Below, in pieces: positions 9,429 to 44,879 of a stretch of DNA of 44,879 nucleotides. The notes below the pieces were generated by a model. It worked only from the letters and a program-made list of their open reading frames with translations. It was not told the origin of the DNA and made no database searches. Position 1 is the stretch's first letter; every line of letters begins with the position of its first letter. The translations under genes and the position numbers were made by a program. Source of the stretch: a virus; the IMG/VR virus record IMGVR_UViG_3300008952_000096, positions 1 to 44,879 of that record; one strand, 5' to 3'.

Positions 9429-9884
9429 CTACATACTCCTTTCAAAGGATAGGAAAGGATTATCTTTCATAAGTATCCTTTCGCGGCCCACCTGAAATCC
9501 CAGACAGTCCCTAAGCCACCGTACAGAGCTAGAATTATCTTCATGTACGAAATTACGGAGGACTCGGTAGTCCTCTACCATTCTGGAGACCCAACCACGT
9601 GCAATTTTTGTATAAGTGAGCTTAACGTCACTGAGGGCATCTGTCCCAAGCAGCCAAGGCACACCTCCCCAATCGGTGGCTGTAATCCCGAACATTGCGA
9701 TAGGCCGTCCCTTATACACCGCTGTATCACACACCTCACAGTAGTCATAGGCTGAAGTAAGGCAGTCTATCGGGGCCATACTAGACACACAGCTAATTTC
9801 CAACTTATCTATATCCCTCAATATAGGAGCCAGGAAGGCGGGATCATGGGCTTCAGAGGGCCGTAGAATGATATCCGGGTTCAT
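9429..9884 (-). CDS. gp13-like protein, GNAT-like fold
   Basis: This 151-aa protein occupies the T7 gp13 position. It shows the acetyltransferase-like pattern of that family: a GRPIAMFGI strand, a WLLGTD turn, a helix with YRVLRNFV, and a C-terminal SSVRWLRDCLGF segment resembling the N-x-x-x-x-x-W/F-L-x-x-x-G ending of GNAT proteins. T7 gp13 is needed for virion morphogenesis but is not in the mature core. Enzymatic activity cannot be judged here. The ATG at 9884 overlaps the stop of tail tubular B (ATGA). Confidence 0.75.
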   Translation of the reverse strand: MNPDIILRPSEAHDPAFLAPILRDIDKLEISCVSSMAPIDCLTSAYDYCEVCDTAVYKGRPIAMFGITATDWGGVPWLLGTDALSDVKLTYTKIARGWVSRMVEDYRVLRNFVHEDNSSSVRWLRDCLGFQVGRERILMKDNPFLSFERSM

Positions 9885-13648: not shown

Positions 13649-14241
13649 TATCGATAACCCCTGCTTATTAGGTCCCACGACTCAGAGTCTTTAAACACAT
13701 TAAAGCTCTCATGGACCGCGTTAGCGTCACCAAGCCTCAGTCTTGCGTGCATCTCGTCCTGCGCCGAGAACAGCCTTAGCTGTGGGTCGCCCACCCTATT
13801 CTCAGAGAGAACTCGGGCAGAACGCATAGTGATATACTTACGAGCTACTTCGGGTAAATCTTCAAATGGAAGTAATGTGGTGAGGATCAACTCCACCTCG
13901 GACGTAAATGTATTTACGTTGTCCGTCCTGTTATAGAGCATCCCCCCACGTTCCACATAAATCTTTTCCGGGCTGTAATTCACCATCTGTACATCTATGA
14001 CAGTTGCTGAAATAAGGATGTTATTATTAACATCAGGCTGTAGCTTGATCTTCTCCATGTTGAACCACCAGCCCTCAGATTGAACCGCCCGCCCTTCTTC
14101 ATCTAGAATTGATTCTGAAGCCTGCACATCTGCGCGGCCATCGTGTGGGGCAGCTAACACAGGTACAGTGGCTTCACCAATAGAGCGCAGCATTAGGTTT
14201 ACTGCTGCTAGTCTGGAGGTTTTACCAAGAACTTCAGCCAT
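13648..14241 (-). CDS. Tail tubular protein A / adaptor, gp11-like
   Basis: This 197-aa protein is essentially the T7 gp11 length (196 aa). It forms the ring linking portal to nozzle. Family traits are the start AAVNLMLRSIGE, the VQSEGWWFNMEK segment and the C-terminal YITMRSARVLSEN...LRLFSAQDEMHARL pattern. It lies after the capsid gene and its terminator, and its stop is shared with the GTG of the gp12-like gene. Because it follows a strong hairpin terminator, its expression relative to capsid is probably reduced. Confidence 0.93.
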   Translation of the reverse strand: MAEVLGKTSRLAAVNLMLRSIGEATVPVLAAPHDGRADVQASESILDEEGRAVQSEGWWFNMEKIKLQPDVNNNILISATVIDVQMVNYSPEKIYVERGGMLYNRTDNVNTFTSEVELILTTLLPFEDLPEVARKYITMRSARVLSENRVGDPQLRLFSAQDEMHARLRLGDANAVHESFNVFKDSESWDLISRGYR

Positions 14242-20013: not shown

Positions 20014-21831
20014 CTAGTGTACTTCGCTCCAGTCTTTACCTGTAAGTGTGTTTGTTTGTAGAGGGCATCGGATTTTTAATTCAGTCTCTGTTTCATTAAT
20101 AGCTTGAGTTAGAGCGTGACTAAGGGCTTTAGAACTGTCTTCATCTTCTACTTCGAAAAGAAGCTCGTCATGTATGGCTGCAAGAAAGTTAGTAGATGTT
20201 TCTAGTTCTGTGCCATGTAATCTCTTGTATAGATTTTTCATCCAGACTTTAAGAACAACACTCGCAGAACCTTGGATAAGTGTGTTTAGGGCGCTATGAG
20301 TTCCGTTTGTTTTAACTATTCTTCCGTCTATTAAGGGAAGTTCTTCTTTAGTTGTTGCGAGTTTTGTAACCATTGAGTGGAGAGGCTTGAAACCTTTAAG
20401 GTTATTGAATATTTTGGTCATAGCATTTTGACCTAGCTTGGAAATGTCTTTTTCAGTCAGGTTTCTTATGGGAGTAGATTCTTCAATGTCTCTGTATATG
20501 ATTCCCCCTAGTTTTTGGACTCCTGCTCCATAGATCAAAGCATAGGAGAATTGTTTTTGGGTGTCCCTATTTTTAATACCTGTCCACTGCATGAAGAGTT
20601 TATGAGGGTCGCCTTGAGTAACCGCTTCAATGAAGGTGTCATTACCGAATTTAGCTAGGTAATGGGCGAGAATACGTAGCTCTATCCCTGACAGATCTGA
20701 ATCTAGAAGAGACCATCCTGGGGTCGGAGCATGGAAAAGTTTCCTTACGTTTTGGGAGCTAGGTATTTGTGCCATGTTTGGTCGGTTGTGGGCCATACGT
20801 CCGGTACGTGATCCTGTACATTGAGTTTGCCCGTGTATTTTTCCTTTAGTGACTAGCTTAAGCCAAGGCACTCTTCCTTCGGCTAGCTGTGCAATGAGTT
20901 TATTAGCTTTCTTAAATTCAATTAGAGCGGGTATGGGTTTGTAGGCAAGTGATTGAAGAACTTCTTCTGTTACTTTTGGATTACCGGCTTCAGTGAATTC
21001 TGTGGGGTACCACCCGTATTCACTAATGAGTCTGTCTGCAATCTGTTGAGTGGACCTTGGGTTGAACTCTAGTATTTTGATCTTTTCTACGGTGCATCCC
21101 TCTTTATAACCTAGCCTTGAGTTGTCTCTTTTGGGGGTGAAGTATCCTAGTGAAATTGATTTAGGCTTTATAATCTCCTTTAATTTTTGTTCTGCTTTTT
21201 CCCGTGTGTCCATAAGTTGTGCATATAGTTTTGCGCCTCCTACTTCATCAAAGCCAATTCCGGTTACATTGGCTTTGGTTAGTAGATAGTTTGCAGCTGC
21301 CTCTGTTTCAAAGGCATCAGTCGGTGTTTCTTTTAGTTCGTTCATCATATGATGGTATAGAAGTGTAGTTAGGGTGGTGTCTTGGACGCAGTAATCAAGC
21401 ATTTCGGGAGTAAACCTAGACCAGTCTGCTGTTTCGTGGAAGTGGCCTTTAAGGAAGTTAAGTCTGTACCCCCAAGCTTTGAGTGAGTGGAGTCCTACTA
21501 GGCTTTTAGGGAATCCTGTTTTCAAACGTTTATAGTCATGCTCTCTTATGTTTGTCAAGAAAGCCATACGGGACATTAAGAGAGTGTCGTGCATTCTATG
21601 GGTAAAGGTGAAGCCTTCTGATAGTGTTTCTATAATGTGCAGATCAAACCCTGATATATTGTGGCCGATAAGTATTTCAGCGGATTCAAGGTAGGACAGT
21701 CCTTCGGGTATGGAGGTGTTATCGAAGGATAATGATTCCTTAGTGTCTATGTTGTGGGTAGCTATACAGTGAATTGTTTTAGCTCTAGGCAGCAGTCCAT
21801 CTGTCTCTATATCGAATACTATTCTTGTCAT
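20014..21831 (-). CDS. DNA polymerase, family A with 3'-5' exonuclease
   Basis: This 605-aa T7-like replicase has exonuclease motif DIETDG at residues 6-11, exo motif YCVQDTT near 160, a palm beginning LDSDLSGIELRILAH near 373 (motif A), KQFSYALIYGAG near 427 (motif B) and HDE near 551 (motif C). T7 polymerase is 704 aa. The segment between the exonuclease/thumb and the EFNPRS motif is only about 28 residues where T7 has about 70 forming the thioredoxin-binding loop, so thioredoxin is probably not the processivity factor. The start overlaps the helicase stop (ATGA). Confidence 0.96.
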   Translation of the reverse strand: MTRIVFDIETDGLLPRAKTIHCIATHNIDTKESLSFDNTSIPEGLSYLESAEILIGHNISGFDLHIIETLSEGFTFTHRMHDTLLMSRMAFLTNIREHDYKRLKTGFPKSLVGLHSLKAWGYRLNFLKGHFHETADWSRFTPEMLDYCVQDTTLTTLLYHHMMNELKETPTDAFETEAAANYLLTKANVTGIGFDEVGGAKLYAQLMDTREKAEQKLKEIIKPKSISLGYFTPKRDNSRLGYKEGCTVEKIKILEFNPRSTQQIADRLISEYGWYPTEFTEAGNPKVTEEVLQSLAYKPIPALIEFKKANKLIAQLAEGRVPWLKLVTKGKIHGQTQCTGSRTGRMAHNRPNMAQIPSSQNVRKLFHAPTPGWSLLDSDLSGIELRILAHYLAKFGNDTFIEAVTQGDPHKLFMQWTGIKNRDTQKQFSYALIYGAGVQKLGGIIYRDIEESTPIRNLTEKDISKLGQNAMTKIFNNLKGFKPLHSMVTKLATTKEELPLIDGRIVKTNGTHSALNTLIQGSASVVLKVWMKNLYKRLHGTELETSTNFLAAIHDELLFEVEDEDSSKALSHALTQAINETETELKIRCPLQTNTLTGKDWSEVH

Positions 21832-23456
21832 AGTTCGACTTCTTCCAATTCTGTTATTCGTCCAGTGTCAGTGGAGTAAAGTAGTTTTCCTGCAATCCCT
21901 AGCTCTCCACTAAATCTGTTCTTAAGGATACGCAGAGTTGTTGTATTAGCTGTTTCTGGGTCTTCGTCTTGACTAGGTCTTTCTAGACCTATAACGATGT
22001 CTGAAAGTTGGCCGATTCCTCCGCTTCCTCTGAGTTGTGCGAGACTTGTCTTTGCCCCGTTTTCATGGCCTGCTCCAGTTTCAGGACGTTTTAGGTGCGA
22101 TATAGCTATCATTTTTATATCTAATTCTTGAACTAGTGTTCGCATATTAGTCATAAGAAGATCTATCATTTTTCTTTCATCTTTAGCTTCTGAGCCGGAT
22201 GCAAGCATTGAAATATGATCAAGTAGGATAGTGTCGCATCCGAAAGCTTTTACCAAATACCTTATCTTTGGCATTAGAGTTTCAGGATCTAGGGAACCAA
22301 AATGTTCAAGAAAGTAGTAGTTTCCTGAACCGATAGTCCTTTCGAAGGAGCTATGAAGGGTGTCTTGATCAATCGTGTTATAAACGTGTGGTAGATGTAT
22401 AGGTTTGTTTAGGTCAAGCCCCATTATGGAATGAGCGCATCGACGTATGGATTCTTCTAGACTGATGCAGCCAACTTTTCCTCCGTTATTAGCAGCATGG
22501 TAGATGATCTCTTTGGCTACTTGCGTCTTACCTAATCCACTTCCTGCACAGAGTACTACCATTTCAGAGTTACGTATGCCGTGGAGTTTTTCGTTAAGTC
22601 CTTCAAATGGGTAACGTATTAGAGCTTCGTGCAGTGGTGCAGAGACTGTTTCCCAAAGGTCCGTACCGGGTATAACTCCAGAGGGTTGGTAAGGCTTGGC
22701 TGCCCATAGTGCGGTTGTGAGGGCTTCAATTTGACCGGCAACTAGCATATCCGAAGGGTCTTTGTAGGGAGAGGGTAGGGTTACAATTGCAGCCTTACCT
22801 GGGGACAATAGTTCGGCACATTTATAAGCTGATTCTTGTCCGGGCTCGTCCATATCAAAACAAAGTACAACTGTTTCGAATTGCTCTAACCATAGAAGAG
22901 CTTTTGCGATGTATTGAGGAGCAGATGCAGCGCCGTTAGGTACGGATACTACAGGCCATTTACAGTTAGTTAATTGGGCTACAGATAGACAATCTAGTTC
23001 TCCCTCAGTTACTACAATTCTTTTTTGGGGTTTCCATAGTTGCTGCCCATAGAGAAGTGTTTCTTTAGGGTCTCCCGTCCAACTGAATTTCTTTTTCGCC
23101 CCTCTTATTTTTTGAGCAACTGGTTGATTCTTATCGTTGTAGTAGGTTGCAATATGTCTAACTGTTCCATTAGTATTCTGTACGGAGTAATCATATTTCG
23201 CGCATGTTTCTTGTGATATACGCCTGCTAGCTATACTTGTGTAAGTGTCGTGTTGTATAAGACTTTTTTTCTTAGATGGACTCTTCATACCATCTATTTC
23301 TGGGGGTGCATTGTCAGTAGGTAAGTGCTGGAGCAGGATGTAATCACATCCTGCCCCGAAGCACTTTTTTCTACCGTTTGAGTACACCGCTACGTTATCG
23401 CGACTCCCGCATTTCGGGCATGGTTCCTTGTGCATGTACTGTGACGGCTGTTTCAT
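21828..23456 (-). CDS. Primase-helicase (T7 gp4-like)
   Basis: This 542-aa bifunctional enzyme (T7 gp4: 566 aa) unwinds DNA and primes the lagging strand. A zinc-binding domain has Cys13, Cys16, Cys32 and Cys37 (CPKCGS...CFGAGC). The TOPRIM EGELD lies near residue 150 with FDMDEPG about 50 residues on. The RecA-like helicase has Walker A GSGLGKT near 303, Walker B ILLDHIS near 412, then ISHLKRP. I use the ATG at 23456, seven residues before a second ATG, with AAGGGA upstream. The open frame extends to 23645 but that part lies over the HTH gene and carries no domain. Confidence 0.93.
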   Translation of the reverse strand: MKQPSQYMHKEPCPKCGSRDNVAVYSNGRKKCFGAGCDYILLQHLPTDNAPPEIDGMKSPSKKKSLIQHDTYTSIASRRISQETCAKYDYSVQNTNGTVRHIATYYNDKNQPVAQKIRGAKKKFSWTGDPKETLLYGQQLWKPQKRIVVTEGELDCLSVAQLTNCKWPVVSVPNGAASAPQYIAKALLWLEQFETVVLCFDMDEPGQESAYKCAELLSPGKAAIVTLPSPYKDPSDMLVAGQIEALTTALWAAKPYQPSGVIPGTDLWETVSAPLHEALIRYPFEGLNEKLHGIRNSEMVVLCAGSGLGKTQVAKEIIYHAANNGGKVGCISLEESIRRCAHSIMGLDLNKPIHLPHVYNTIDQDTLHSSFERTIGSGNYYFLEHFGSLDPETLMPKIRYLVKAFGCDTILLDHISMLASGSEAKDERKMIDLLMTNMRTLVQELDIKMIAISHLKRPETGAGHENGAKTSLAQLRGSGGIGQLSDIVIGLERPSQDEDPETANTTTLRILKNRFSGELGIAGKLLYSTDTGRITELEEVEL

Positions 23457-23682
23457 TGCTGGTGGTCCCTTCTTGGAGTTCATAGATGGCATAACGTGAG
23501 CCGTTGGCTGCTTTAGCCCATCGGGTTTGAATGTCCATCCCATTTTTTCGAAGTTCACTGATTCGTGAAGCGAGTCTCCAAACGTTGAACTCTGACCATG
23601 CAATGAGTTGTGTAATTTTCTTCTGCTTTTTAAGGTATCTGGCAATGTTTACGTTCTGTGTGGCTGCTTTAGTTTTGATCAT
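23395..23682 (-). CDS. Small helix-turn-helix-like protein
   Basis: This 95-aa basic protein has the segment ITQLIAWSEFNVWRLASRISELRKNGMDIQTRW...YAIYEL, the pattern of a winged-helix/HTH domain common in small phage proteins beside replication genes. It may bind DNA or regulate; no target is evident. The ATG at 23682 overlaps the endonuclease I stop (ATGA), with another in-frame ATG four codons earlier (23694). Its last about 60 bases overlap the primase-helicase start in another frame. Confidence 0.75.
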   Translation of the reverse strand: MIKTKAATQNVNIARYLKKQKKITQLIAWSEFNVWRLASRISELRKNGMDIQTRWAKAANGSRYAIYELQEGTTSNETAVTVHAQGTMPEMRESR

Positions 23683-25518: not shown

Positions 25519-27948
25519 TTAGCTGAAGAAGTAATCTGCTTGGAGTACTTCGTTCAGATCTAGGTTTCCCATTTGAGGTAAAGGTAGTATTAATTTCTTA
25601 GCTTCATCAGACATGGGACTGGTGACTTCATCATGGAATCTTTGAAGTACGGGTTCTTTATATATTTTGATGAATTGTTCTCGCAGACATGTTGCAAGTA
25701 GAGGAGCGTCAGCAGCTGTAGTTGCAAACGAGTCATGTACTGTAGCGAATGACATGTCTGGCCTGTCTCTTTTACAAGCTAGTATTGTTCTCATTAAATG
25801 TGCTGAGTCTATACTGTGTATAAAGTTGGGACTTATTGAATTAACAGCTTTTTTAGCAAGTATTTTTGTTTCGGCAGTTGGTGTAGACCAGACTGCTTTT
25901 ATCATTTGGCCTGAGAGTCTGGTTGTGATTCTTTTTGATATGTAGTTTTGATAGGATTGTTTAATAGTTAGTCCTGCTGGGTTAGTCCACACAAGGGGTA
26001 CATTATCGAAGGCGGAGGCTTCAGCAATGGATTTAAGGAAATTCATTGTCTCTCTGGCAGCGATTACGGTGGATTCAATGGCCTCTTTTATTATAGGGAA
26101 GAGGTAATTAACGGCGGCTGGTGTTCTTTGTCCGAATGGGGTAGGGGTACCGTCATAAGCGGTGTTAATGAAGTCGTACACTTGTTGTCTTAGTCCGTAA
26201 TTCATTAGACCGTATGGGCTGGTCATTGTGGGCGCTTTACACAGATCTCTGTTAATGAGTTTTGTTGTAAGCCATAGGGCAGGGAGTGAATTAGGGTTAG
26301 GGTCATTTTGAGCGTCTTTGGCGACTATTTTATGGACTTCTTCTGCAATTATGGAGTAGATATCACTAGGTCTTTCAAGTGGTACCATGTTTACTACTTT
26401 AGCTGCTTTCTCATCTAGGATACAAGCACTGAGGTGCTGGTATCCGTTTGCTGTTCCGTCCATAGCAACGGGGAGTGAAGACATAAATCCCCAACCTTTG
26501 TCTTTGAATGCGCTGTATTCAAGAGCCCAAGCAAGGAATGAGTAGGGCTTATCTGCTTCTGTCCAATGTGTGTTTACCAGCGGGTCGTTGGATATAGCTT
26601 CTATTATATCTGAGTTAGAGTCTACCCAGTCTAGTCTTTCTTGGAAGGAGTCTTTAGTTCTTCCCCAGCAGTTTGCTCCATGTATCATTAACCATTGGTG
26701 CTGGCTTTCGTTGGTGATTGGTTTAGGTTTTGAGAAACGTAATAGGGCTTTAATACTTTCAGTGGCTTGGACAGATAGGAATATTGGAAGAGGGTATACC
26801 CTTCCACGGAAGTCTAAGTTACATGGATAAAAAAGGTTTTCTTTATCGGCGTACTGTCGTGCAAGCCCTAGAGTAGTGGCGAGAGTGAGGGCTTGTGATC
26901 TTCTACGGTTATTTGCTACATGGATATTTTTGGCAGTGAACTTCCATTTTAGATAGATCTCTTCATTATCTGTGTCTGGTTTTGGTGGTATTTGAGTAGG
27001 GGTTTGTCCGGGAAGATTCCCAATACGTGTGTCATTTCTCCAGACTTCTTCTAGTACTGTAAGTATGTCAGTGTCTAGTTTGAAAGGAACTTCTTGAATA
27101 GCGTTGAGTGCTTGGTAGACAATGGGCATTTCAGTGGTTTTAAGTTTATCTAAGTAATCGCTGTCTCGTGTTTTTACTAGTTTTGTAGGTATTTTTTCAT
27201 AGCCCCCATTTAATGGGGTTTTCCAGGGTTTTGGCTTCGTGAAGATTGGCTGAGTCCATGGATGTAGAAGCTCTGCACGTGCGTCTGCTTTATAGAGTAG
27301 TTCTACTAGTTCTTCAGTTGGTCCGAATAGATTTGCATTTCTAGGTCTTCCATATTTTGTAGTTTTGATTGTCTTTACTTCGAATAGTCCACTGGCATCC
27401 ATTAAAGCATCAAGACAGAAGTAACCTACGCGAGCAATAACTTTGGTAGGCCAAGAAGTCCAGTCGATCTCAGTAGAGTTAGATACTGCTCTTTTAAATG
27501 CGCGCCTTGCTTCTGGCTCTGTTCTTTGTCTGGCTTTGTTGGTTCGATTAACTCTATTGAAAGTTGTCCTGTCTTCATGATACAAGTCGTTGACTGATAT
27601 CTCGGTTTGAAGCCTAGAAGCAATTCGTCTTGCGTAGGTATGTAGTGTTATTTTGTCTTTTTTGGAGACTGCATCTAATACGGTACGTACTGTGATCAAT
27701 GCAATTTTATTGGGTGATATGACCTCTATGTAAGGAATGGCAGACTTATTTATCCCGGAGTATTTAGCTGTCTTGATTCGTGTCTTTATTAGAGCAGCAG
27801 TGGGGTCAAGAAGCCGTTGAGCGAGGGTTCTTGGAGGACCAAACCTAGTTTCAGCCATGTTTTTCTTACTGGCTTCTCGTTGGCGTCTGTAGCGATTACG
27901 CCCCTTTTCTATTGCTGCTTTTTCTTGTTCCGGCCAGTCGTTATGCAA
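25519..27948 (-). CDS. Single-subunit DNA-dependent RNA polymerase (T7 gp1-like)
   Basis: This phage polymerase is expected to transcribe the middle and late genes. It is 809 aa against 883 in T7. Catalytic signatures are present: NLDFRGRVYP near residue 378, MDGTANGYQHLSA near 496 (the T7 Asp537 site), CKAPTMTSPYG near 570 (the Lys631 site), NFIHSIDSAHL, and the VHDSF His-Asp near 737 (the Asp812 site). It ends ADYFFS, comparable with the T7 FAFA foot. The start is TTG at 27948 with AGGAGA six bases upstream; the next ATG is about 30 codons in. A terminator hairpin lies 33 bases upstream, so supply may be regulated by read-through. Confidence 0.97.
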   Translation of the reverse strand: MHNDWPEQEKAAIEKGRNRYRRQREASKKNMAETRFGPPRTLAQRLLDPTAALIKTRIKTAKYSGINKSAIPYIEVISPNKIALITVRTVLDAVSKKDKITLHTYARRIASRLQTEISVNDLYHEDRTTFNRVNRTNKARQRTEPEARRAFKRAVSNSTEIDWTSWPTKVIARVGYFCLDALMDASGLFEVKTIKTTKYGRPRNANLFGPTEELVELLYKADARAELLHPWTQPIFTKPKPWKTPLNGGYEKIPTKLVKTRDSDYLDKLKTTEMPIVYQALNAIQEVPFKLDTDILTVLEEVWRNDTRIGNLPGQTPTQIPPKPDTDNEEIYLKWKFTAKNIHVANNRRRSQALTLATTLGLARQYADKENLFYPCNLDFRGRVYPLPIFLSVQATESIKALLRFSKPKPITNESQHQWLMIHGANCWGRTKDSFQERLDWVDSNSDIIEAISNDPLVNTHWTEADKPYSFLAWALEYSAFKDKGWGFMSSLPVAMDGTANGYQHLSACILDEKAAKVVNMVPLERPSDIYSIIAEEVHKIVAKDAQNDPNPNSLPALWLTTKLINRDLCKAPTMTSPYGLMNYGLRQQVYDFINTAYDGTPTPFGQRTPAAVNYLFPIIKEAIESTVIAARETMNFLKSIAEASAFDNVPLVWTNPAGLTIKQSYQNYISKRITTRLSGQMIKAVWSTPTAETKILAKKAVNSISPNFIHSIDSAHLMRTILACKRDRPDMSFATVHDSFATTAADAPLLATCLREQFIKIYKEPVLQRFHDEVTSPMSDEAKKLILPLPQMGNLDLNEVLQADYFFS

Positions 27949-36258: not shown

Positions 36259-36503
36259 GATCTCTCTCCATCTCATCTGGGTGCGGAGGACTCTGAGTCA
36301 ATCGACCCAGCCCCTCGCGCACACGCACTGTTCTTGGGACGGCACCACAGGTGACCTGAGATTCTCGTAGTGCCGCGAGCGGAAAAATTGTTCGCAGCCA
36401 CGGGGTTATCGTCAGCGTCCCTTTGCTGAGGATGACCGCATGGCGGAGCGAAGAAATTTTCCGAGCGGTGCTACATCTCAGGGCATCTGTGGTAACGAGC
36501 GAA

Positions 36504-36557
36504 GATCCCAGGGAAGCTCGACCGATTAGGGAGAGATTCACTCTGGGGCTTAGCGGT
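36504..36557 (-). repeat. Repeat unit A (long form)
   Basis: The longer unit begins GATCCCAGGGAAG on the plus strand, runs through the 22-bp core (36516-36537) and TCACTCTGGGG, and ends CTTAGCGGT. It is nearly identical to units C (36836) and E (36970). The minus-strand core has CCCTAATC and TCGAGC blocks, loosely like a phage-type promoter. Confidence 0.8.
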
Positions 36558-36624
36558 CCCAAGGACTGTGTGTGTGTGTGTGCTTCCTAGGGCCATGGAA
36601 TAGTACGGGGACTGAATCCGACAT

Positions 36625-36694
36625 CCACCTGTGTTTCATTTCCGCTCTGCCCGAGTGATTAGCGAGGGATTTTATGGAAATGGAACAGAGGTGG
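36625..36694. repeat. Inverted repeat 1 enclosing core copy B
   Basis: Arms 36625-36643 and 36676-36694 are complementary at 17 of 19 positions (CCACCTGTGTTTCATTTCC and GGAAATGGAACAGAGGTGG on plus). The loop contains the second 22-bp core. The right arm is repeated at 36754-36772. Confidence 0.8.
36649..36670 (-). repeat. 22-bp core, copy B (short form)
   Basis: The plus strand reads GCCCGAGTGATTAGCGAGGG plus AT, identical to copy D at 36934-36955. It differs from the long-form cores at three positions and lacks their flanks. Confidence 0.85.
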
Positions 36695-36729
36695 ATAGCG
36701 GAGGATTCAGTCACCGAAGAGGACCTCCT

Positions 36730-36767
36730 CCTGTGTTTCATTTCTTCTCTTAGAAATGGAACAGAGG
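36730..36767. repeat. Inverted repeat 2
   Basis: Arms 36730-36745 and 36752-36767 pair at 14 of 16 positions with a 6-base loop (CCTGTGTTTCATTTCT and AGAAATGGAACAGAGG). The sequences match those of inverted repeat 1, indicating duplication of a hairpin. Confidence 0.8.
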
Positions 36768-36835
36768 TGGATCGGGACGATGAGGGGACCGTTCTATTTG
36801 GCCCGCCGCAGCTTTTGGAATGAGTACTGGAGCGA

Positions 36836-36889
36836 GATCCCAGGGAAGCCCGACTGATAAGGGAGGGATTCACTCTGGGTCTCAGCGGT
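36836..36889 (-). repeat. Repeat unit C (long form)
   Basis: This has the same layout as unit A: GATCCCAGGGAAG, core 36848-36869, TCACTCTGGG, then CTCAGCGGT. Core and right flank are identical to unit E. Confidence 0.85.
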
Positions 36890-36933
36890 GCAGCGTGGGT
36901 GACTGCGGCGCGACGGCGCTGCAGCGCAGCAGA

Positions 36934-36955
36934 GCCCGAGTGATTAGCGAGGGAT
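36934..36955 (-). repeat. 22-bp core, copy D (short form)
   Basis: This is an exact copy of core B without the long-form flanks, 24 bases from core E. Confidence 0.85.
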
Positions 36956-36969
36956 CGGATTGCGGGAGG

Positions 36970-37011
36970 CCCAGGGAAGCCCGACTGATAAGGGAGGGAT
37001 TCACTCTGGGG
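36970..37011 (-). repeat. Repeat unit E (long form)
   Basis: CCCAGGGAAG, core 36979-37000 and TCACTCTGGGG match unit C except at the outer edges. The unit ends in CCCAG/CTGGG, which could pair. Confidence 0.85.
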
Positions 37012-37132
37012 TGACGTTGGTGTTATCTCACAAGCCTGCAAAAAGGTAGGACAGTGTAATTATCACCCACGTGCGATGCACGCACTAGCTCGTTAGTGGC
37101 AGTCAGGGGTTACTCAGTGCCCCGCTGCATCT

Positions 37133-37268: not shown

Positions 37269-37532
37269 CTACCTATGGACTTCCCTAACAGCCTCACAGT
37301 ACGCTTCAACTCTCCCCAAATAGTCCTCAATAGCTGGGCTCTGATCCAGCCCGCCCCTCCACATCTCCTCAATCATCTCCATATTAATCTGCGGACATTC
37401 AGGAGCCATCATCACCCCCTCGCTGGTAGCGCAGCCGAGCCCTCCAGCGAGAAATAAGCTCAGAACCCGTAGCCGTACGCTCCCCCAGCTTGTTCGAAAA
37501 TACATCAAGAGCTTTTCTAAGTCGTAGTACAT
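37269..37532 (-). CDS. Outer-membrane spanin-like lipoprotein (Rz1-like), overlapping
   Basis: This 87-aa product begins inside the i-spanin gene in another frame. The ATG at 37532 has a strong AGGAGAAGGA. The N-terminus MYYDLEKLLMYFRTSWGSVR is followed by LRVLSLFLAGGLGC, a signal with a Cys at its end, although the lipobox is imperfect (Gly at -3). The mature part is short, with Pro and Cys residues (APECPQ). Overlapped position, lipoprotein-like signal and gene order match Rz1-type o-spanins, which pair with Rz to fuse inner and outer membranes. A start at 37505 is possible. Confidence 0.68.
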   Translation of the reverse strand: MYYDLEKLLMYFRTSWGSVRLRVLSLFLAGGLGCATSEGVMMAPECPQINMEMIEEMWRGGLDQSPAIEDYLGRVEAYCEAVREVHR

Positions 37533-37653
37533 CTTTATTCCTTCTCCTAAGTTCGCCTGTGGCTCTCCCAATCTCCTGTCCCATGGTCTTCAGCCCCCAA
37601 AGGGCTGCTATTAACGCGACTAAGCAGACCGAGACAACGACCAGCCACTCCAC
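37399..37653 (-). CDS. Inner-membrane spanin-like protein (Rz-like)
   Basis: This 84-aa protein has an N-terminal membrane helix (VVVSVCLVALIAALWGL, residues 5-21) and then a charged helical, coiled-coil-like domain (GRATGELRRRNKDVLRLRKALDVFSNKL), the i-spanin layout. It starts with GTG at 37653 sharing its G with the holin TAG (TAGTG), and the o-spanin-like gene starts within it. It is shorter than lambda Rz (153 aa). Confidence 0.72.
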   Translation of the reverse strand: MEWLVVVSVCLVALIAALWGLKTMGQEIGRATGELRRRNKDVLRLRKALDVFSNKLGERTATGSELISRWRARLRYQRGGDDGS

Positions 37654-37889
37654 TAGGCCCGGGGAGGCAGGAGACCGGGAGGGAGTACCTTAACCTCTGC
37701 ATTATCTGGTCGGAACAAGTGCAGACCGTACGCAATGACCCCCGCTCCCACCAGTCCCCACTCAATGGCCTTATTGATGAGGTCCGGTGTTCCTTCGGGG
37801 GCTCCAAAGCTAGTGGCTACCCACGCTAGTACTGGGGCAAGCATGGCTAGGAACGCTCTACTCTTTACTATCCATTTCTCTTCTTGCAT
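37653..37889 (-). CDS. Holin-like protein
   Basis: This 78-aa protein has two hydrophobic segments (AFLAMLAPVLAWVATSF at residues 12-28 and AIEWGLVGAGVIAYGLHLF at 41-59), a charged N-terminus and a Pro-rich tail. Size, topology and position between the endopeptidase and spanin genes indicate a class II-type holin that opens the inner membrane. AGGTGAAG lies before the ATG. Confidence 0.75.
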   Translation of the reverse strand: MQEEKWIVKSRAFLAMLAPVLAWVATSFGAPEGTPDLINKAIEWGLVGAGVIAYGLHLFRPDNAEVKVLPPGLLPPRA

Positions 37890-37893
37890 TTCT

Positions 37894-38214
37894 TCACCTC
37901 AATGGCTGGTATTCAATATGAATGTGCGCGTTTTTTCGTTCTAGCAGCACCTCAAAGTCCGTCCCTAAGGACTGCTGTATCTTCTTGGTGATCCACTCCC
38001 ACTTACCTCCAGTGTCCGGTATGTGTCTAATACGGCAGTCAAATGCCGAACCTGAGTAGTGGAAGGACCTTCTGGAATGCACCCCATCAGACGCAGAGGT
38101 GACTACTGCATCCTCACCCTCGTCTGCAAATACACCGGAAACTACAACCATAGCTACTGCGATCTCTGGGCAGAGACCACCTAAGCGAACCCCAGGCTTG
38201 AGTCTAAGCCCCAT
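37894..38214 (-). CDS. M15-type peptidoglycan endopeptidase (endolysin)
   Basis: This 106-aa zinc peptidase is predicted to cut peptide cross-links in murein. The family pattern is visible: SFHYSGSAFD gives His52 and Asp59, and LLERKNAHIHIEY gives Glu92 and His97/His99, matching S-x-H-x-x-G-x-A-x-D and E...H-x-H of M15 enzymes. T7 uses an amidase (gp3.5) instead, and none is found here. There is no signal peptide, so it should depend on the holin. I prefer the ATG at 38214, six bases after AGAG; 38220 is possible. Confidence 0.85.
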   Translation of the reverse strand: MGLRLKPGVRLGGLCPEIAVAMVVVSGVFADEGEDAVVTSASDGVHSRRSFHYSGSAFDCRIRHIPDTGGKWEWITKKIQQSLGTDFEVLLERKNAHIHIEYQPLR

Positions 38215-38542
38215 TATCATCTCTTAGCTTAAACATACGCTCAATGGAGTTAATAGTTTTCTGAATTTTCTCGGCTCTACGAATAGAGGTCTTCATATCG
38301 TCTTCTATGCCAAGTACACCCACCTCTAAGCGGACAACTGACTCATGTGTAGCCTTGGTTGTCTCCTCAAGTTTCTCTGTGCGGTCTTCCATAATATCTA
38401 AACGTAGCTCTGTATTCTGTAGCCGGTCCCGTACTTTCATGTGAGACCGCCCTGCCCCAAGAATTGCGGCAGAGACTCCTGCAAATAGAACCCCCACCAA
38501 CTCCTTAAGGGACGTAATCTCATCCAACCTAATCCTCTCCAT
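38204..38542 (-). CDS. Membrane-anchored coiled-coil protein, 112 aa
   Basis: One membrane helix (ELVGVLFAGVSAAILGAG, about residues 14-31) precedes a long heptad-like charged region from 36 to 105 (VRDRLQNTELRLDIMEDRTEKLEETTKATHESVV...). It could be a holin partner or another spanin-like element. It sits at the head of the lysis cassette and overlaps the endopeptidase start by about 11 bases. Confidence 0.7.
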   Translation of the reverse strand: MERIRLDEITSLKELVGVLFAGVSAAILGAGRSHMKVRDRLQNTELRLDIMEDRTEKLEETTKATHESVVRLEVGVLGIEDDMKTSIRRAEKIQKTINSIERMFKLRDDNGA

Positions 38543-38544
38543 CT

Positions 38545-38850
38545 CTAGGTACCCGAAGGCTCACAAATCATCCCAGGACTGACCCACGGCATCTGATCGT
38601 CCTTCTCCCTGTTGTCCTCTACGCCCAGCAAACTGAAACACGCCTCATGCCAAGTCTCCAGAACCACGCTCACCAACCTGTCCCATTCCTCGTCAGACCC
38701 TGCGAGGGGCCGGAAGCGATCATGGAGGGCGATGGCTGGACCGTCCTGCATCTTTGCCATGCAGAGTTGGTGGGAGAGAGTGCTGATGTTGGCGCTAGCT
38801 ACTGAAGGTGCCAGCAGGAGCCCCAGTACTATAAATAGTCCCGCCTTCAT
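38545..38850 (-). CDS. Small exported protein, 101 aa
   Basis: A Sec signal peptide is visible (MKAGLFIVLGLLLAPSVASA, cleavage likely after ASA). The mature part of about 81 residues contains three Cys (LCMAKM, EACFSL, MICEPSG) and no known domain. The ATG at 38850 overlaps the sulfatase stop (ATGA), so the two are probably co-translated. It could be an accessory periplasmic protein for the sulfatase or a lysis factor; neither is shown. Confidence 0.72.
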   Translation of the reverse strand: MKAGLFIVLGLLLAPSVASANISTLSHQLCMAKMQDGPAIALHDRFRPLAGSDEEWDRLVSVVLETWHEACFSLLGVEDNREKDDQMPWVSPGMICEPSGT

Positions 38851-40640
38851 GTCCCGTTGGGCCAAGTGTCGGGATACCGGGCCAACTCCGTTAAGAGGGC
38901 CTGAAGCGCCACAAGATCTGGGCCGGTGGCCGTGGCTTCACAATTCCCGATAGTGCATAAGGGAGTAGTCTGCTCTGGGTCACTAACGAGGTTGTAGAGT
39001 GAATCCTGCTGCCTGTAATACTTGTACCCCGCATTGTCAACGATAGCCCTGCCAGCCGCTAAATTGGTGCTTCCATTTGAGTGCACAAATGTGACACCGA
39101 ATCGGCTAGCAGAGTCGCACTGGCTGGGCACGTTCATCACGGAGGAGCAGGGTGCCCGCGTATCTTGAAGGCGGGCCAGTACGTTGTCTGAACCTGCGGG
39201 GAGATCTCCCGCAATCCTGTGGACACCCGCCACATCTAGGATTGTTTGATTCAGGTCGGTCATTGTTACCGCAGCGTTGCTGAATGTGTTTCGACTAACA
39301 TCTGCAAGAACTCCACCAGCGATGATCAGGGGGACACCTGTCCCGGTATGGTCTACGGAGTTTTTGCCAATACCCCGTTCATGGGGAGCCGATCCCTCAA
39401 TAGTACTAAAGGCTAACTGCTGTTCCTCTGTCAGTTCACTTCCCAGACAGGTAGCCCCATTGTTACTGTTGAGGCACGTTGGGGATGAATTAAATGTATC
39501 CATGAGATTTATGGCCGCATCTAGCCACGGCTTTGAACCCCAGTTTTCTGATCCATTGTCTCCGTGAAGAATTATCAACGTGTCTGCACGCTGGGCGGGA
39601 GTGAGGTGGTTAACCATATTGCCTATCTGCACATCCACTTCGTTGATATGTTTGACAAAGCATTCAACATTAGTGTTTGCATCAATTACGGTGTTCCCCT
39701 GTGCATCTAGGTTTATACAAGAGCCAGTTTGGTTGTTCGCGTTGATGCCAGTCATGGGGTCAGCATTAAAGGTGTTGTTGCCCGGAAACGGGGTATGGGG
39801 GATATGCGGCCCAAGAAAGCTCAACCACAAGAACCAGGGCGGGGCGTCTTCTGGGTTCTCTGGGAAGGAGCTATAGTGTGTATCTAGATAATCCATCGCT
39901 CTTTGTGTGTACGCCCCATCGGCGTAGGTGAAGGTAGTCGCGCAATCCCCCAAATATGGGCTCATTACCCCCTGCCACCCCACCTGTGCCTGTGGCCCGC
40001 CATTAACAGTTTCAAAGACTGATATTTGACACCAAAGTTGGTTATTGCCTTGGCTAAACGGCCACATCATTGCATGGTCAAACCCCATTATTGCATTGGG
40101 CTCTGCTGTTAGGGGGTTAGGTGTTTGTCCCAGTTCCCCTGTAGTACCTATCCCGTTCTTGCCAGATCCGTATGTAGTGTACCCCGCATCCGATAGGTAC
40201 TTAGGGAGCATCGGCTTATTATACATTTGTATCAAGTTGGGGATACCCGGCGTATTCCCATCGGTTTGACCCGAAATATTTGATGAGGTTAGCCACTGAT
40301 TTTCGGGACGGTCCCCATATGTAACTAGTACGTCGAATCCAGTCAGAAGCTCTGCCCTGGTTGCGACACACCACCGCTCTGCCTGCCCCAAGACAAATGT
40401 AACACCGTCTGCACGTAGGGCATCGATATTGGGTGTGGATAGTCCGGCCAGGGGCAGCAACGAGTGCTGCGCTGGGGAGTAGTCAAGAGCATCCCATCCA
40501 ATATCGTCCATCGTGATTAGGAGGACGTTGGGCTTTCTAGCCTTTTCGTATCCACCCGTAGAGCCGCCTCCGTATGATCCAGCAATTGACTCACCACAGA
40601 CCAGCAAAGTGGCAATAATAAAAATCAATAGTCTTTTCAT
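38847..40640 (-). CDS. Secreted formylglycine-type sulfatase (S1-like)
   Basis: This 597-aa alkaline-phosphatase-fold sulfatase should remove sulfate esters, substrate unknown. A Sec signal peptide (MKRLLIFIIATLLVCGESIA) comes first. Active-site features are LLITMDDIGWD (Asp45, Asp46), STPNIDALRADGVTF, the maturation signature CVATRAELLTG at 91-101 (Cys91, Arg95), GSGKNG with Lys161, GPHIPHTP at 277-284, and ILHGDNGSENWG with Asp361/Asn362. Thus the metal site and the Cys precursor of formylglycine are intact, with Ala in place of the usual Pro (CxAxR). Sulfatases are rare in phages. It lies between a fibre-like exported protein and a small exported protein. Host formylglycine-generating enzyme or an anaerobic maturase would be needed. 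Confidence 0.9.
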   Translation of the reverse strand: MKRLLIFIIATLLVCGESIAGSYGGGSTGGYEKARKPNVLLITMDDIGWDALDYSPAQHSLLPLAGLSTPNIDALRADGVTFVLGQAERWCVATRAELLTGFDVLVTYGDRPENQWLTSSNISGQTDGNTPGIPNLIQMYNKPMLPKYLSDAGYTTYGSGKNGIGTTGELGQTPNPLTAEPNAIMGFDHAMMWPFSQGNNQLWCQISVFETVNGGPQAQVGWQGVMSPYLGDCATTFTYADGAYTQRAMDYLDTHYSSFPENPEDAPPWFLWLSFLGPHIPHTPFPGNNTFNADPMTGINANNQTGSCINLDAQGNTVIDANTNVECFVKHINEVDVQIGNMVNHLTPAQRADTLIILHGDNGSENWGSKPWLDAAINLMDTFNSSPTCLNSNNGATCLGSELTEEQQLAFSTIEGSAPHERGIGKNSVDHTGTGVPLIIAGGVLADVSRNTFSNAAVTMTDLNQTILDVAGVHRIAGDLPAGSDNVLARLQDTRAPCSSVMNVPSQCDSASRFGVTFVHSNGSTNLAAGRAIVDNAGYKYYRQQDSLYNLVSDPEQTTPLCTIGNCEATATGPDLVALQALLTELARYPDTWPNGT

Positions 40641-40641
40641 A

Positions 40642-42801
40642 CTAAGGCTCCAGTGTAATCTTTAGGGTCGGTCGAACATAGTCAAGCCCTTCCGTACCCA
40701 TATATTCCCACACTACATTGCCATCGCTGCAGGTGGCGGGGACTCCAACCACCCGCGACTCGCACGTAGGGGGAGTAGACCCAGTTATTGGGGCAGTACT
40801 CGACCACTCTTGGTGAGCCGCGTATGACCTAGTGACACCGTTCCCATCAGTATGCCTAACCCAATACCGGTTCGAGGCGATTCCTGCGCCTGCGGGACTA
40901 AAGGGAATCTGGGAGTTCGCTTGCCAGTCTATGCCGCCGTCTGCAAAGGCTGCCTGCTGCCATATAGCACCGGGCGCACCGCCCTGCAGACCACACTGTG
41001 TAGCGGTGAACTGAGCATCAAGGGAGCTAATCCCATCGGTGCCTCTGCCGTTGAAATACGGTGCTATTTCATTGTTCACCACTTCGTTCGCAACTTTGAT
41101 TTGGCCCGAGAATTGGTGCTGCGGGCCAGTGAAAGCCTCCATGACTATGTTCGCTGTTCCCGCCGGTATGGTTATGTACTCTGGTGTACTTAATGGGCCT
41201 ACGCTGGCGTTTGTAACTGGCATTGGTCCCATGAACTGAGTGTCTAGGTTTCCTAAGCCACTCGCATTCTGCGACTGGAGGAAGGCGTCGGTGTACTTAA
41301 ACCCGCTAGTGCCTAGGAACATATTGGCACTAAACCCATCTGCGTTTGACGAGGATTGAGGGTACTGGGTACCCGTGGCCGGGAGCCGAGAACTGATAGA
41401 AAAATTGCCATAAATCTCGAATGAGTTCCTCGTAGTATCCATGTCGTACAGCACCATCCCGCCGCACATATCAGCAACCATGCTAGTCACCCCGTCATAT
41501 CCGACTCCGGGGGCGTTTCCCCAAGTGTTGTGGTTCGGGTTGGTACTTCCTCCTGCAAGCAGTCCACCGAATGGCTGTGCAATAAACGAAAGGTCAAACT
41601 CCCAGACGTAAGTGGCTGGGTTACCGGGAGAGCCTGCGGTCTGTACCCACCCCTCAGCAAGACTCCCATCTTCAAAGAGGGTACCGGGAGCAAACCCACA
41701 TACAGGAGAGGGGGCCAGACCGCTGAACAACTCAACACCGCTAAGTTGTGGGTTCCCTACACAATCGACCAGTTCCAATAGAAGTACGCCAGAGCCTTGG
41801 GTTTCTACGGGACCAACGTTATTCCCCCGGCCCCGCGCCCTGCTTAACACATTAAATGTCGCATAGTTCGCTGACTGGCTTGGGGCGTACTGCGGTGGGC
41901 CAAGGATGTTGCGCCCCGTTGACGGGGAGGGTGGAGTGCCGCCCGCCGGGTCGCCGAACGGTGCAGCCAGGGGATCGAATGTCCAGGGGTAGGGCGATAC
42001 CTTGCCAGCTTCGGTGTTAAAGATATTCAAGGCTGTTGAATAGACTAGATCATCGAATGCCGTGAGAGAGGCGGGGGCTGTAACAAAGCTGTAGTTCCTG
42101 TTAGAGCAGGTGGTGTCGGTGCATGTAAAGTCGAGAATGGGCTCCAACCATACAGAGGGTAGGTGGCTCCCTCCCGATGCCGCGTTATTCAAAAGAGGAC
42201 AACCAAAAGTCGGGATAGACCCGTCAGACCCCAGCGTACACACCACATCCGCTGTGAGCCCACCCGCTGCTTGATCTGGAACCTTCAGGGTAAACGAATG
42301 CGAGCCGCTATTCCCGGCCTCGTCCAAAACCAATGCAGAACCCACGGTGGGGTGGGGCTCGATAATAATCGAAGCCCCCGGTTGGTTCAGGAGAAGGTCG
42401 CCCGAACTCACATCAAAATATAGTGGCGATGTGGTTGGCCCAGGCGTAGATAGACCCAGAGAGAAGTCATCGGCGTCCGTTGACGTTTTTGTAACTCCAC
42501 CAGTCGAGGTTGTCGCGCCGCCGCCGGGACCACCACCAGAAACGACAACATCAACTACACCTGCTCCTTGAGCAGTTACAGAAGAGATTCCGGGACCTTG
42601 GAAGTCAATTACAGTAGCGGCTGCCTCAATAGTGACACCATTAGCATCCACCTGAACAGGAGCGCCAGGGGTACCGGCAGGACCTTGTGTGCCTCCACCT
42701 GTACTATAAACAGGACCACTTGGATTGCTGTATACGGTGGTGGCTACGGCTAAGGCTCCCGTGGCTACCACAGTCAATACCTTAGTAATCTTAGACCACA
42801 T
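40642..42801 (-). CDS. Large exported Gly-rich protein, fibre-like, 719 aa
   Basis: The N-terminus MWSKITKVLTVVATGALAVATTVYS is a signal peptide or anchor. Residues 30-110 are Gly-rich with a short collagen-like GPAGTPGAP and a VDVVVSGGGPGGGATTS stretch like virion fibre linkers. The rest is beta-rich, with many Gly/Asn/Thr/Pro residues and scattered Cys (for example FTCTDTTCSN near 228 and PTCESRVVG near 677). No T7 gp17 N-terminal domain is present. It could be an exported adhesin or glycan-binding partner of the sulfatase, or the phage's fibre. The ATG overlaps the upstream stop (TAATG), and the sulfatase starts just after its stop. Confidence 0.75.
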   Translation of the reverse strand: MWSKITKVLTVVATGALAVATTVYSNPSGPVYSTGGGTQGPAGTPGAPVQVDANGVTIEAAATVIDFQGPGISSVTAQGAGVVDVVVSGGGPGGGATTSTGGVTKTSTDADDFSLGLSTPGPTTSPLYFDVSSGDLLLNQPGASIIIEPHPTVGSALVLDEAGNSGSHSFTLKVPDQAAGGLTADVVCTLGSDGSIPTFGCPLLNNAASGGSHLPSVWLEPILDFTCTDTTCSNRNYSFVTAPASLTAFDDLVYSTALNIFNTEAGKVSPYPWTFDPLAAPFGDPAGGTPPSPSTGRNILGPPQYAPSQSANYATFNVLSRARGRGNNVGPVETQGSGVLLLELVDCVGNPQLSGVELFSGLAPSPVCGFAPGTLFEDGSLAEGWVQTAGSPGNPATYVWEFDLSFIAQPFGGLLAGGSTNPNHNTWGNAPGVGYDGVTSMVADMCGGMVLYDMDTTRNSFEIYGNFSISSRLPATGTQYPQSSSNADGFSANMFLGTSGFKYTDAFLQSQNASGLGNLDTQFMGPMPVTNASVGPLSTPEYITIPAGTANIVMEAFTGPQHQFSGQIKVANEVVNNEIAPYFNGRGTDGISSLDAQFTATQCGLQGGAPGAIWQQAAFADGGIDWQANSQIPFSPAGAGIASNRYWVRHTDGNGVTRSYAAHQEWSSTAPITGSTPPTCESRVVGVPATCSDGNVVWEYMGTEGLDYVRPTLKITLEP

Positions 42802-43271
42802 TATTCCGGCACCTCTCTAAGACTAACTACCGTCTTATTAACTGCTGAAGCAGTGCCTCTGAGCCAGTATTCTCCCTTACTAAGCCATAGGCAGTCTGTA
42901 CCATTGAGAAGCCCAGCACCCGGAACAATCTTATATACACCAATTGTTGGGACAGCAGCTGAGGGGGTAACGTATTCAACCACCTGCACTGTTGCCGATG
43001 TGGAATCAGAGTCCATACAGATTTTAGCTCTGTTTACTACTCTGAATGTGGCGGATTCTCTGCTTGGGTCTACCCCAGATACAGGAGCCCACCAGTAGCA
43101 GATCCCACCGTGGAGGCGTGTAGCAAGGCAGGGGGTCGAGTAGTCTAAGCCTACGGAGTCTGTTGAATAAACGAATGGAAATGCGGGGTCTGCATTCTGA
43201 GAGAACGCTTGTTCAGAAACTCCCACCAAAAGCCCCAAGGCTGAAAGTAGTGTTACAAAGATCTTACGCAT
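42801..43271 (-). CDS. Exported protein of unknown function, 156 aa
   Basis: A clear Sec signal peptide (MRKIFVTLLSALGLLVGVSEQAFSQ, cut near AFS) precedes a mature beta-rich part of about 132 residues with four Cys (PCLATRLHGGICYWW, KICMDSD, TDCLWL), possibly two disulfides. No family was recognised. It is the first gene after terL and heads the exported cassette, ending in a TAATG overlap with the 719-aa gene. Confidence 0.75.
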   Translation of the reverse strand: MRKIFVTLLSALGLLVGVSEQAFSQNADPAFPFVYSTDSVGLDYSTPCLATRLHGGICYWWAPVSGVDPSRESATFRVVNRAKICMDSDSTSATVQVVEYVTPSAAVPTIGVYKIVPGAGLLNGTDCLWLSKGEYWLRGTASAVNKTVVSLREVPE

Positions 43272-43282
43272 GTGTACCTTCC

Positions 43283-44879
43283 TTAGTGTTTAACGCCCAT
43301 AGGGGCAATCCATGTATTATGGGTTTTGCTGGGTCTCCCCAGGCAGTTGTCAAGAAATCTTTCAAGCTCCCTGTCCTGTAACTCGTTTTGATGATCCACC
43401 ATAGCCTCGTCAACGTCGATAGCTATCTGGTCTACCCAATATCTACAAGCCATTGACAGGGCATCCAATCTGTCATCGTGCCTAAGAGACCCTTTATCCT
43501 TGGTAATCCGTGTAAGTTGGTGGACGAGCTTTCTGTGGGTGTAGTGTTGGTCAGACTCATCTGATTTAAGTGCGTCACTCATTAGTAAGGACCGATCAAC
43601 TACAACTCTATGCTGGTTCATCAGGGGCTCCATTGCATCGATTATCCTTAACTCTTTCTGTCCTACAGCCGTGGGAGCATCCTCAATAGTCACATCATAC
43701 ACCTTACGTAGTACTGGTTTGAAGACTTCTAAGTACAGCCCATCACCAAAGTTAGGCTCAACAATTATTAGGTTCACTGCCTCTTCTTTTGCAATATTGG
43801 CTAAACTTGAAAGGGTTTTCTGATCATATCCGCCCTTAAACCCACCACACCTACGGATAAATATCTGACCATTGAGCATCTTCGCTACACAGTAGCCGGT
43901 CTCATCACGCCCTCTACCAGAGGGGTCAATAGACATGACCGCTCCCGTATAAGGTAGCCACCGCTCATCTTTAACAGGAATCCGGGAATAGAATCGGTCA
44001 CCCTGTAGACCTAGATTTGGCAGTTCTGGGATTATGTTCTCTTTTGAAGAGTTCCAGATAACCTTTTCAGGTGCTAGTTTCGTATCAACATCCATGACAA
44101 CTAGATCAGAAGTCTTAAGAGGGTACCTTTCAGCGTCTGATAAGGTCGTATCTAGCTGGAATTGAAGCGCGAACCCACTGCGCCCATATTCTGCTTCTCT
44201 CTCCTGCAGTTCCCCCTCATCGAAGCGTGTATCTGTGGGTGTCCCTGAAGGCAGCCGTCCTTGTTCTATCATGTCACTTATAGATGGAGCGAGATTTCCT
44301 CGGTATCCCGACAACTTAGAAGGAACGGGTATTCTCGCGGGCCAAATCCGAACGTCATACCCGCGTTCAGGAAGCTTGTTATAGATAGAGTCTTCTGTTT
44401 GAGGGGTTCCTAGATAGATTATTTGATGACTTGTAGATTCAAGCAAATCGTCTGGCTTTAGAATTGCTGAAAACTCCTTAGTGCGCTCTACTAGTTTATC
44501 TCTCTGAGTCTGAGATTCAGAGTTATTAGGTGTTTCTACATCATCAGCAATAATAATTGAGGCTCTACTCCCTGTTAATTGACCATATAGGCCCAACGAC
44601 TTAACAGACGGGCTCTGAGACACCATGGCGTTACCAACAGTGAAGCGTTCAATAGAGTCAAACCCGTGCCCTTGACGCGGTGTCATATGTTGGAGCATAG
44701 GCATCTCACTCACCAGCATCTTAGTGAAGCGTGAGAAGGCATCTGAACGGTCTTTCGAGGCACTCACTACCAGAATATTCTCATTGGGGTCTCGGTAGAG
44801 CCTCCAAAGTACATAGGCACTAGTCAGATAGGACTTCCCCATACCACGGAAGGCCATAACAAGCTTCCTACGCTGTGTG
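43283..44879 (-). CDS. terL: Terminase large subunit, main part (start lies at 262)
   Basis: This ATP-driven DNA packaging motor and nuclease continues the segment at 1-262 across the circle join, 579 aa in all. T7 gp19 similarity is strong: AFRGMGKSY (Walker A), SPSVKSLGLYGQLTGSRASIIIADDVETPNNS (Walker B DD), YLGTPQTEDSIY, GTPTDTRFDEGELQEREAEYG, MSIDPSGRGRDETGYCV (nuclease Asp), VEPNFGDGLYLEVF, and KDKGSLRHDDRLDAL (nuclease Asp pair). A T7-type terminase points to exact direct terminal repeats and concatemer cutting. Bases 44761-44879 duplicate bases 1-119. Confidence 0.96.
   Translation of the reverse strand, partial: TQRRKLVMAFRGMGKSYLTSAYVLWRLYRDPNENILVVSASKDRSDAFSRFTKMLVSEMPMLQHMTPRQGHGFDSIERFTVGNAMVSQSPSVKSLGLYGQLTGSRASIIIADDVETPNNSESQTQRDKLVERTKEFSAILKPDDLLESTSHQIIYLGTPQTEDSIYNKLPERGYDVRIWPARIPVPSKLSGYRGNLAPSISDMIEQGRLPSGTPTDTRFDEGELQEREAEYGRSGFALQFQLDTTLSDAERYPLKTSDLVVMDVDTKLAPEKVIWNSSKENIIPELPNLGLQGDRFYSRIPVKDERWLPYTGAVMSIDPSGRGRDETGYCVAKMLNGQIFIRRCGGFKGGYDQKTLSSLANIAKEEAVNLIIVEPNFGDGLYLEVFKPVLRKVYDVTIEDAPTAVGQKELRIIDAMEPLMNQHRVVVDRSLLMSDALKSDESDQHYTHRKLVHQLTRITKDKGSLRHDDRLDALSMACRYWVDQIAIDVDEAMVDHQNELQDRELERFLDNCLGRPSKTHNTWIAPMGVKH
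44761..44879. repeat. Terminal direct repeat, right copy (assembly overlap)
   Basis: These 119 bases are identical to bases 1-119; see the left copy. Keeping both would duplicate about 40 codons of terL, so one copy should be removed when closing the circle. Confidence 0.9.

Follow-up and report, generated by a model that had tools for sequence, protein, structure and literature searches.

Among described systems, the nearest to the locus analysed here are the secreted S1 sulfatases (PF00884), in which the His of the GKWHLG motif contacts formylglycine; a phage sulfatase-like family of unknown function (PHROG 19870); the capsule depolymerases and tailspikes of phages, which are usually attached to the virion or made as soluble products without signal sequences; and the superinfection-exclusion proteins and exported morons, which are mostly single, small proteins, often encoded by temperate phages or expressed early. 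Phage carbohydrate-interacting proteins have been reviewed (PMC9853417), and phage FGE genes have been mentioned, the FGE encoded by Pseudoalteromonas phages being read as auxiliary metabolic (PMC10232697). A preliminary description of the DNA studied here had proposed that a set of exported phage proteins around a sulfatase was undescribed, and this held: we found no description of an exported sulfatase cassette in the open-access papers or phage records that were searched. To judge from its sequence, the cassette, made up of g156, g719, a sulfatase-family gene and g101, is an exchanged, variable and predicted-exported module. Our best guess is that it constitutes a late-secreted set that would remodel glycans or destroy receptors, and it probably alters sugars at the host surface or in its surroundings.

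The window (the whole stretch of viral DNA that was analysed, 44,879 nt) is a complete T7-like phage genome of 44,760 bp plus a 119-bp terminal repeat; positions 1-119 are repeated at 44761-44879, so that the record is circular in the assembly. The T7-like assignment was made with PHROGs, from terL, portal, capsid and tail proteins. Read along the minus strand, the genes follow the order gp16, terS, terL, g156, g719, sulfatase, g101, g112, M15-like endolysin, holin-like gene and spanins, in agreement with the earlier placement of the cassette after terL and before the M15, holin and spanin genes (Table 1). A homologue of the M15 gene in another carrier, L053, matches the endolysin family phrog_894. 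A second contig (L004), near-identical to the window, shows gp16-terS-terL-cassette unbroken across the cut point of the circular record. Compared with the window, L004 changes frame within gp16 near its position 7310 (around residue 882); this is either an assembly error or a true difference.

The four genes had been described as consecutive and overlapping. They are consecutive and tightly packed, starting 11 nt after terL, with a 1-nt overlap between g156 and g719 and a 4-nt overlap (ATGA) between the sulfatase gene and g101, but the overlap does not extend to every junction, as g719 and the sulfatase gene are separated by a 1-nt gap; g112 follows g101 after 2 nt. Since terminator-like sites on the minus strand between terL and the lysis genes show no excess over the chance level, the four cassette genes and their neighbours most likely form one late transcript. 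Elsewhere in the window, an embedded frame with a lipobox-like LGC (37269-37571) overlaps the i-spanin gene and is likely the o-spanin. A poorly coding stretch between the spanin and the early genes (36503-37020) contains a cluster of imperfect direct repeats of 20-55 nt and is perhaps the packaging or terminal region, and the early/replication region includes large ORFs at 25519-27948 and 20014-23645.

Table 1. Cassette genes, their predicted signal sequences and motifs, and neighbouring genes in the window
Feature	Position	Strand	Basis
terL, next gene upstream; N-terminal part continues at window 1-262	43283..44879	-	phrog_38, 1.7e-105; wrap-around seen in the assembly
g156, small predicted-exported beta-rich protein, 156 aa, 4 Cys in the mature part	42801..43271	-	ORF; RBS AAGGAAGG
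Predicted signal sequence of g156, MRKIFVTLLSALGLLVGVSEQAFS, cut before QN	43200..43271	-	Heuristic
g719, predicted-exported protein of 719 aa, rich in Gly and tail-fibre-like, C-terminal part variable	40642..42801	-	ORF; homologues
Predicted signal sequence of g719, beginning MWSKITKVLTVVATGALAVA	42730..42801	-	Heuristic
Conserved block of g719, aa 132-207, Cys pair invariant in 7/7 members	42181..42408	-	46% identity to L032/L033
S1 sulfatase-family protein, 597 aa	38847..40640	-	PF00884 77.6 bits, cut-off 25
Predicted signal sequence of the sulfatase-family protein, MKRLLIFIIATLLVCGESIA, cut before GS	40578..40640	-	Heuristic
Nucleophile motif CVATR, aa 91-95, whose Cys and Arg do not vary among family members	40356..40370	-	Alignments
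GKNGIG, aa 160-165; retains the Lys but not the His of the usual GKWHLG	40146..40163	-	Alignments
DNG metal-ligand motif, aa 361-363, invariant	39552..39560	-	Alignments
g101, predicted-exported 101-aa protein, most conserved member	38545..38850	-	ORF; homologues
Predicted signal sequence of g101, MKAGLFIVLGLLLAPSVASA, cut before NI	38791..38850	-	Heuristic
g112, transmembrane and coiled-coil protein, after g101	38204..38542	-	ORF; similar genes in relatives
Lysis genes, downstream: M15-like endolysin, holin-like, i-spanin-like	37399..38220	-	ORFs and profile matches

Relatives were gathered in turn with the sulfatase, g101, the sulfatase subfamily and g156, which yielded about a dozen further uncultivated phages. 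The co-inheritance suggested for the four genes is borne out in these phages: the full order g156-g719-sulfatase-g101 is found in the window, L043, L033/L032, L040, L050/L049 and L053, while L057 has g719-sulfatase-g101 without g156. Other contigs start inside or just before the sulfatase gene or g101 (L044, L047, L058 and L063), or end just after g156 or within g719 (L070-L073). Contig ends fall inside the cassette in about 10 of the 16 contigs, a pattern that might point to trouble in assembly caused by the variability of the cassette but is not clearly above expectation.

Phages of four packaging/capsid types carry the cassette. In the T7-like carriers (the window, L043 and L057, with a phrog_38 terL) it lies after terL. 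The remaining types are represented by L032/L033 (phrog_1328 capsid, phrog_1216 portal, phrog_2 terL), whose structural genes are also those of L040; by L050 (phrog_371 capsid); and by L053 (phrog_212 capsid, phrog_332 portal, phrog_2 terL). In carriers of these three further capsid/portal types the cassette sits in the structural block, after the major capsid gene in the L033 and L050 types (two genes intervene in L050), and it adjoins the lysis genes in the window and L053. By gene order, the late placement put forward in the preliminary description stands as far as the late region is concerned, but a position from terL to the lysis genes is not a general rule. Recurrence of this gene order in phages whose packaging and capsid types are unrelated shows that it is more than chance. 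A terL-based search also recovered T7-like kin without the cassette.

Comparison of close relatives revealed where the cassette varies. Between the sister phages L033 and L040, flanking proteins are 93-98% identical in amino acid sequence (~94%), and g156 and g101 retain 97% and 87% identity, whereas g719 and the sulfatase drop to 52% and 51%. Similarly, over 8 kb L071 matches L072 at 92.6% identity, a similarity that ends about 100 nt into g719. L053 and L058, which are different phage types, share 88% nucleotide identity over the 3' part of the sulfatase gene and g101, stopping at the end of g101, and L043 and L047 share 93.5% nucleotide identity in g101 only. In a tree with 16 other sulfatases (a few bacterial ones and other viral-contig sequences), those of the cassette form one clade with support 99/96. 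The sulfatase tree conflicts with phage lineage, as the three T7-like members do not form one clade (AU p 7.9e-7); the placement of the window sulfatase is unsure because of its long branch. On these comparisons phages seem to swap versions of the cassette, the two large genes (g719 and sulfatase) appearing variable and exchanged and the two small ones (g156 and g101) more constant.

The preliminary description had also assigned a Sec-type signal sequence to each of the four genes. All of them pass a home-made heuristic rule for n-, h- and c-regions, as do 27 of 27 homologues, so that 31 of 31 cassette genes are positive versus 7 of 39 other genes in the window; these seven include the holin-like gene, and most of them score lower or have doubtful start codons. 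The cut of the sulfatase signal, after SIA, was picked by eye, the rule's own best cut being after residue 16. Mature cassette proteins of the window contain 1.89 Cys per 100 aa, versus 0.55 in its structural and packaging proteins (p 5e-6), and the corresponding values in four relatives are 1.9-2.3 versus 0.1-0.8 for structural proteins. Conserved Cys columns are present in all four families. Such a high content is expected of proteins that fold in the periplasm, although by itself it does not prove export, because early/replication proteins of the window likewise contain a fair amount of Cys (1.62 per 100).

Predicted export, together with variability, would also fit superinfection exclusion, in which exported proteins would modify or mask the receptor on the still-living infected cell and block competing phages. 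Variation of g719 and the sulfatase would then represent exclusion specificity, and exchange between unrelated phages would reflect competition in shared hosts. We nevertheless consider this explanation unlikely: the genes lie either in a late operon downstream of terL or, within the structural block, behind the capsid gene, and by this order their products would be made late in the lytic cycle; an enzyme with three partners exceeds the needs of known exclusion proteins, and no lipobox was seen in the cassette proteins of the window.

The partners of the sulfatase appear to belong to three new families, all of them open to immediate testing; g156, g719 and g101 gave no convincing match in the 50,697 named phage records or in Pfam, PHROGs or PDB. 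The cassette itself was found in none of these 50,697 records, where single-sequence searches with all four proteins gave weak generic sulfatase matches only. Plasmids contained generic sulfatases at about 22-26% only, and g101 was absent from them. Scans of genome contigs with g719 and the sulfatase, which relied on exact 8-residue words and reach close kin only, confirmed no cassette; these two proteins were the only queries, and cellular homologues of g101 and g156 are possible. Among the other viral contigs, L031 (IMGVR 3300030419_004814) encodes at 970-4158 a protein of 1062 aa in which a sulfatase domain (phrog_19870, 7e-13) comes after a long N-terminal part; the protein has no signal sequence and is possibly a sulfatase built into the virion of another phage.

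The smallest partner, g101, is 49-68% identical between lineages, and its dN/dS of about 0.1-0.2, where measurable, indicates strong purifying selection. A gene for a transmembrane and coiled-coil protein directly follows g101 in the window (g112), L043 (10246-10605), L053 (6922-7245), L050 (7443-7745) and L044 (2133-2423). Since it does so in several phage types, its product may be a fifth partner; genes of this kind show weak spanin-like matches to phrog_739. Homologues of g156, of 146-166 aa, are encoded by L043, L033, L040, L050, L053 and L070-L073, and every member has four Cys in its mature part. The model of g156 is a low-confidence beta-sandwich (pLDDT 59) that could be assigned to no fold (best TM about 0.4). 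A Pfam match of g156 to CIS_spike_tip (E 0.0019, below the cut-off) was taken as chance.

Homologues of g719 in other phages measure 277-505 aa. The protein combines a short block of conserved sequence, which contains a Cys pair, with a stretch rich in Gly and a C-terminal part that varies, and the starts of the window and L057 proteins look, by eye only, like phage tail-fibre sequence. An AlphaFold2 model of g719 alone reached a pLDDT of 33; because the models of g719 and g156 are poor, the term fibre-like reflects the sequence character of g719 only. PF03906, the N-terminal anchoring domain of T7 fibres, is absent from g719 and from the whole window, and in L043 and L057 it is found in a gene separate from g719. 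L043 and L057 thus possess a T7 fibre gene in addition to g719, which led us to reject the idea that g719 is simply that gene displaced. The gp12-like tail tubular protein of the window (9881-13678, 1265 aa) matches LUZ100 gp12 from residue 675 onwards and has about 430 extra residues in its N-terminal half; as the window lacks the T7 fibre N-domain, these residues may be the receptor-binding part.

The lack of this domain, the Gly-rich, tail-fibre-like N-terminus of g719 and the location of the cassette in the structural block of other phage types would all suit a virion-associated set, that is, accessory fibres and an enzyme that attach to particles after export or at lysis, and that would bind and de-esterify glycans at the start of the next infection. 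The assembly of tailed virions, however, takes place in the cytoplasm, and Sec-cleaved proteins would come into contact with them only once the cell had lysed. In addition, L043 and L057 have an ordinary T7 fibre gene besides the cassette, and the high Cys content of the cassette proteins differs from that of virion proteins. Attachment to the particle is, in our opinion, rather improbable.

All 9 members of the sulfatase family match PF00884 (E <= 0.1), and profile matches in PDB point to the S1 sulfatase structures 6uss and 7oza (E about 1e-18). Cys91, Arg95, Lys161, His279, Asp361-Asn362 and Lys426 (window numbering) are invariant in 9/9 members, the extremes of the family being ~25% identical, and with these residues in place catalysis is plausible. 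The metal ligands in the window are D45, D46, D361 and N362; L033/L040 have DE as the first pair. The Lys-x-His pair of GKWHLG is incomplete in 9/9 cassette sulfatases, which retain the Lys and lack the second active-site His. Given the contact of this His with formylglycine, its absence may change activity without abolishing it. The third residue of CxxxR is Ala, Pro, Met, Thr or Val across the family, and the CVATR of the window fits C/S-x-P/A-x-R; known maturase motifs are stricter at this position. The absence of the second His, and a third motif residue other than Pro or Ala in some members, make activity and FGly maturation uncertain. No FGE was detected in any of the 14 phage records (several of which are fragments), so maturation, if any, would depend on the host.

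The loss of the second His in all members and the relaxed context of the nucleophile could also mean that the sulfatase fold merely binds sulfated or charged glycans, in a lectin-like manner, and that the set serves as a decoy or adhesin. We find such a non-catalytic role very doubtful, since the invariance of Cys, Arg, Lys, His, Asp-Asn and the second Lys at such low overall identity implies a working active site. Least credible of all is that these are auxiliary metabolic genes, with the exported enzyme freeing sulfate or sugars from dissolved polysaccharide and feeding the infected host: marine bacterial sulfatases are scavenging enzymes and the FGE of Pseudoalteromonas phages has been so interpreted (PMC10232697), but uptake or sugar-metabolism genes were not seen travelling with the cassette, late expression beside lysis leaves little time for gain, and partner genes of unknown type nearly always accompany the sulfatase.

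We tentatively favour late export of a binder and an enzyme that would act on a host glycan so that progeny escape trapping. Late in infection, the Sec system of the host would export the four proteins to the periplasm, where they would fold with disulfides, and at lysis they would be released together with the virions. The fibre-like g719 would act as the binder, targeting a glycan of the host surface or matrix, the sulfatase-family enzyme would strip from this glycan an ester group that carries charge, sulfate being the simplest case, and g156 and g101 would be constant partners. Glycan binding sites would in this way be altered or destroyed on the dying cell, its debris and neighbouring slime, and untrapped progeny would reach new hosts. 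Allele swapping of binder and enzyme would track changing host glycans.

More speculatively, the cassette might belong to an undescribed class of phage weapon, a Sec-exported four-protein module, passed between unrelated phages, that strips charged groups and frees progeny. Such a weapon, with binder and enzyme alleles swapped between constant flanking genes, would be the phage counterpart of a receptor-destroying enzyme. If this were true, several phage types would use host secretion to place a dedicated enzyme set outside the cell, a function beyond those usually listed (lysis, adsorption and exclusion), and the pattern of constant and variable genes would give a direct handle on the host glycans that drive phage turnover in nature.

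With secreted S1 sulfatases, the phage proteins share the fold family, a signal sequence (predicted here), CxxxR, DNG, and Lys and His residues. They differ in lacking the second active-site His, in forming a separate clade, and in always being accompanied by g101 and, where the contig reaches, by a g719-type gene. The match to PHROG 19870 is weak, partial and low-scoring (1.8e-9 for the window and 3.5e-5 for L033). As for influenza neuraminidase, a virion membrane protein of an animal virus that is unrelated to the cassette, the resemblance is a functional analogy only and concerns the proposed destruction of receptors that frees progeny. The proposed effect on surface glycans and the rapid exchange of alleles are in common with capsule depolymerases and tailspikes, in contrast to which the cassette is a multi-gene set predicted to be exported by Sec. 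Finally, superinfection-exclusion proteins and exported morons are, as the cassette proteins are predicted to be, phage-made envelope proteins with signal sequences; unlike these mostly single genes, the cassette comprises four linked late genes, one of which encodes a member of an enzyme family.
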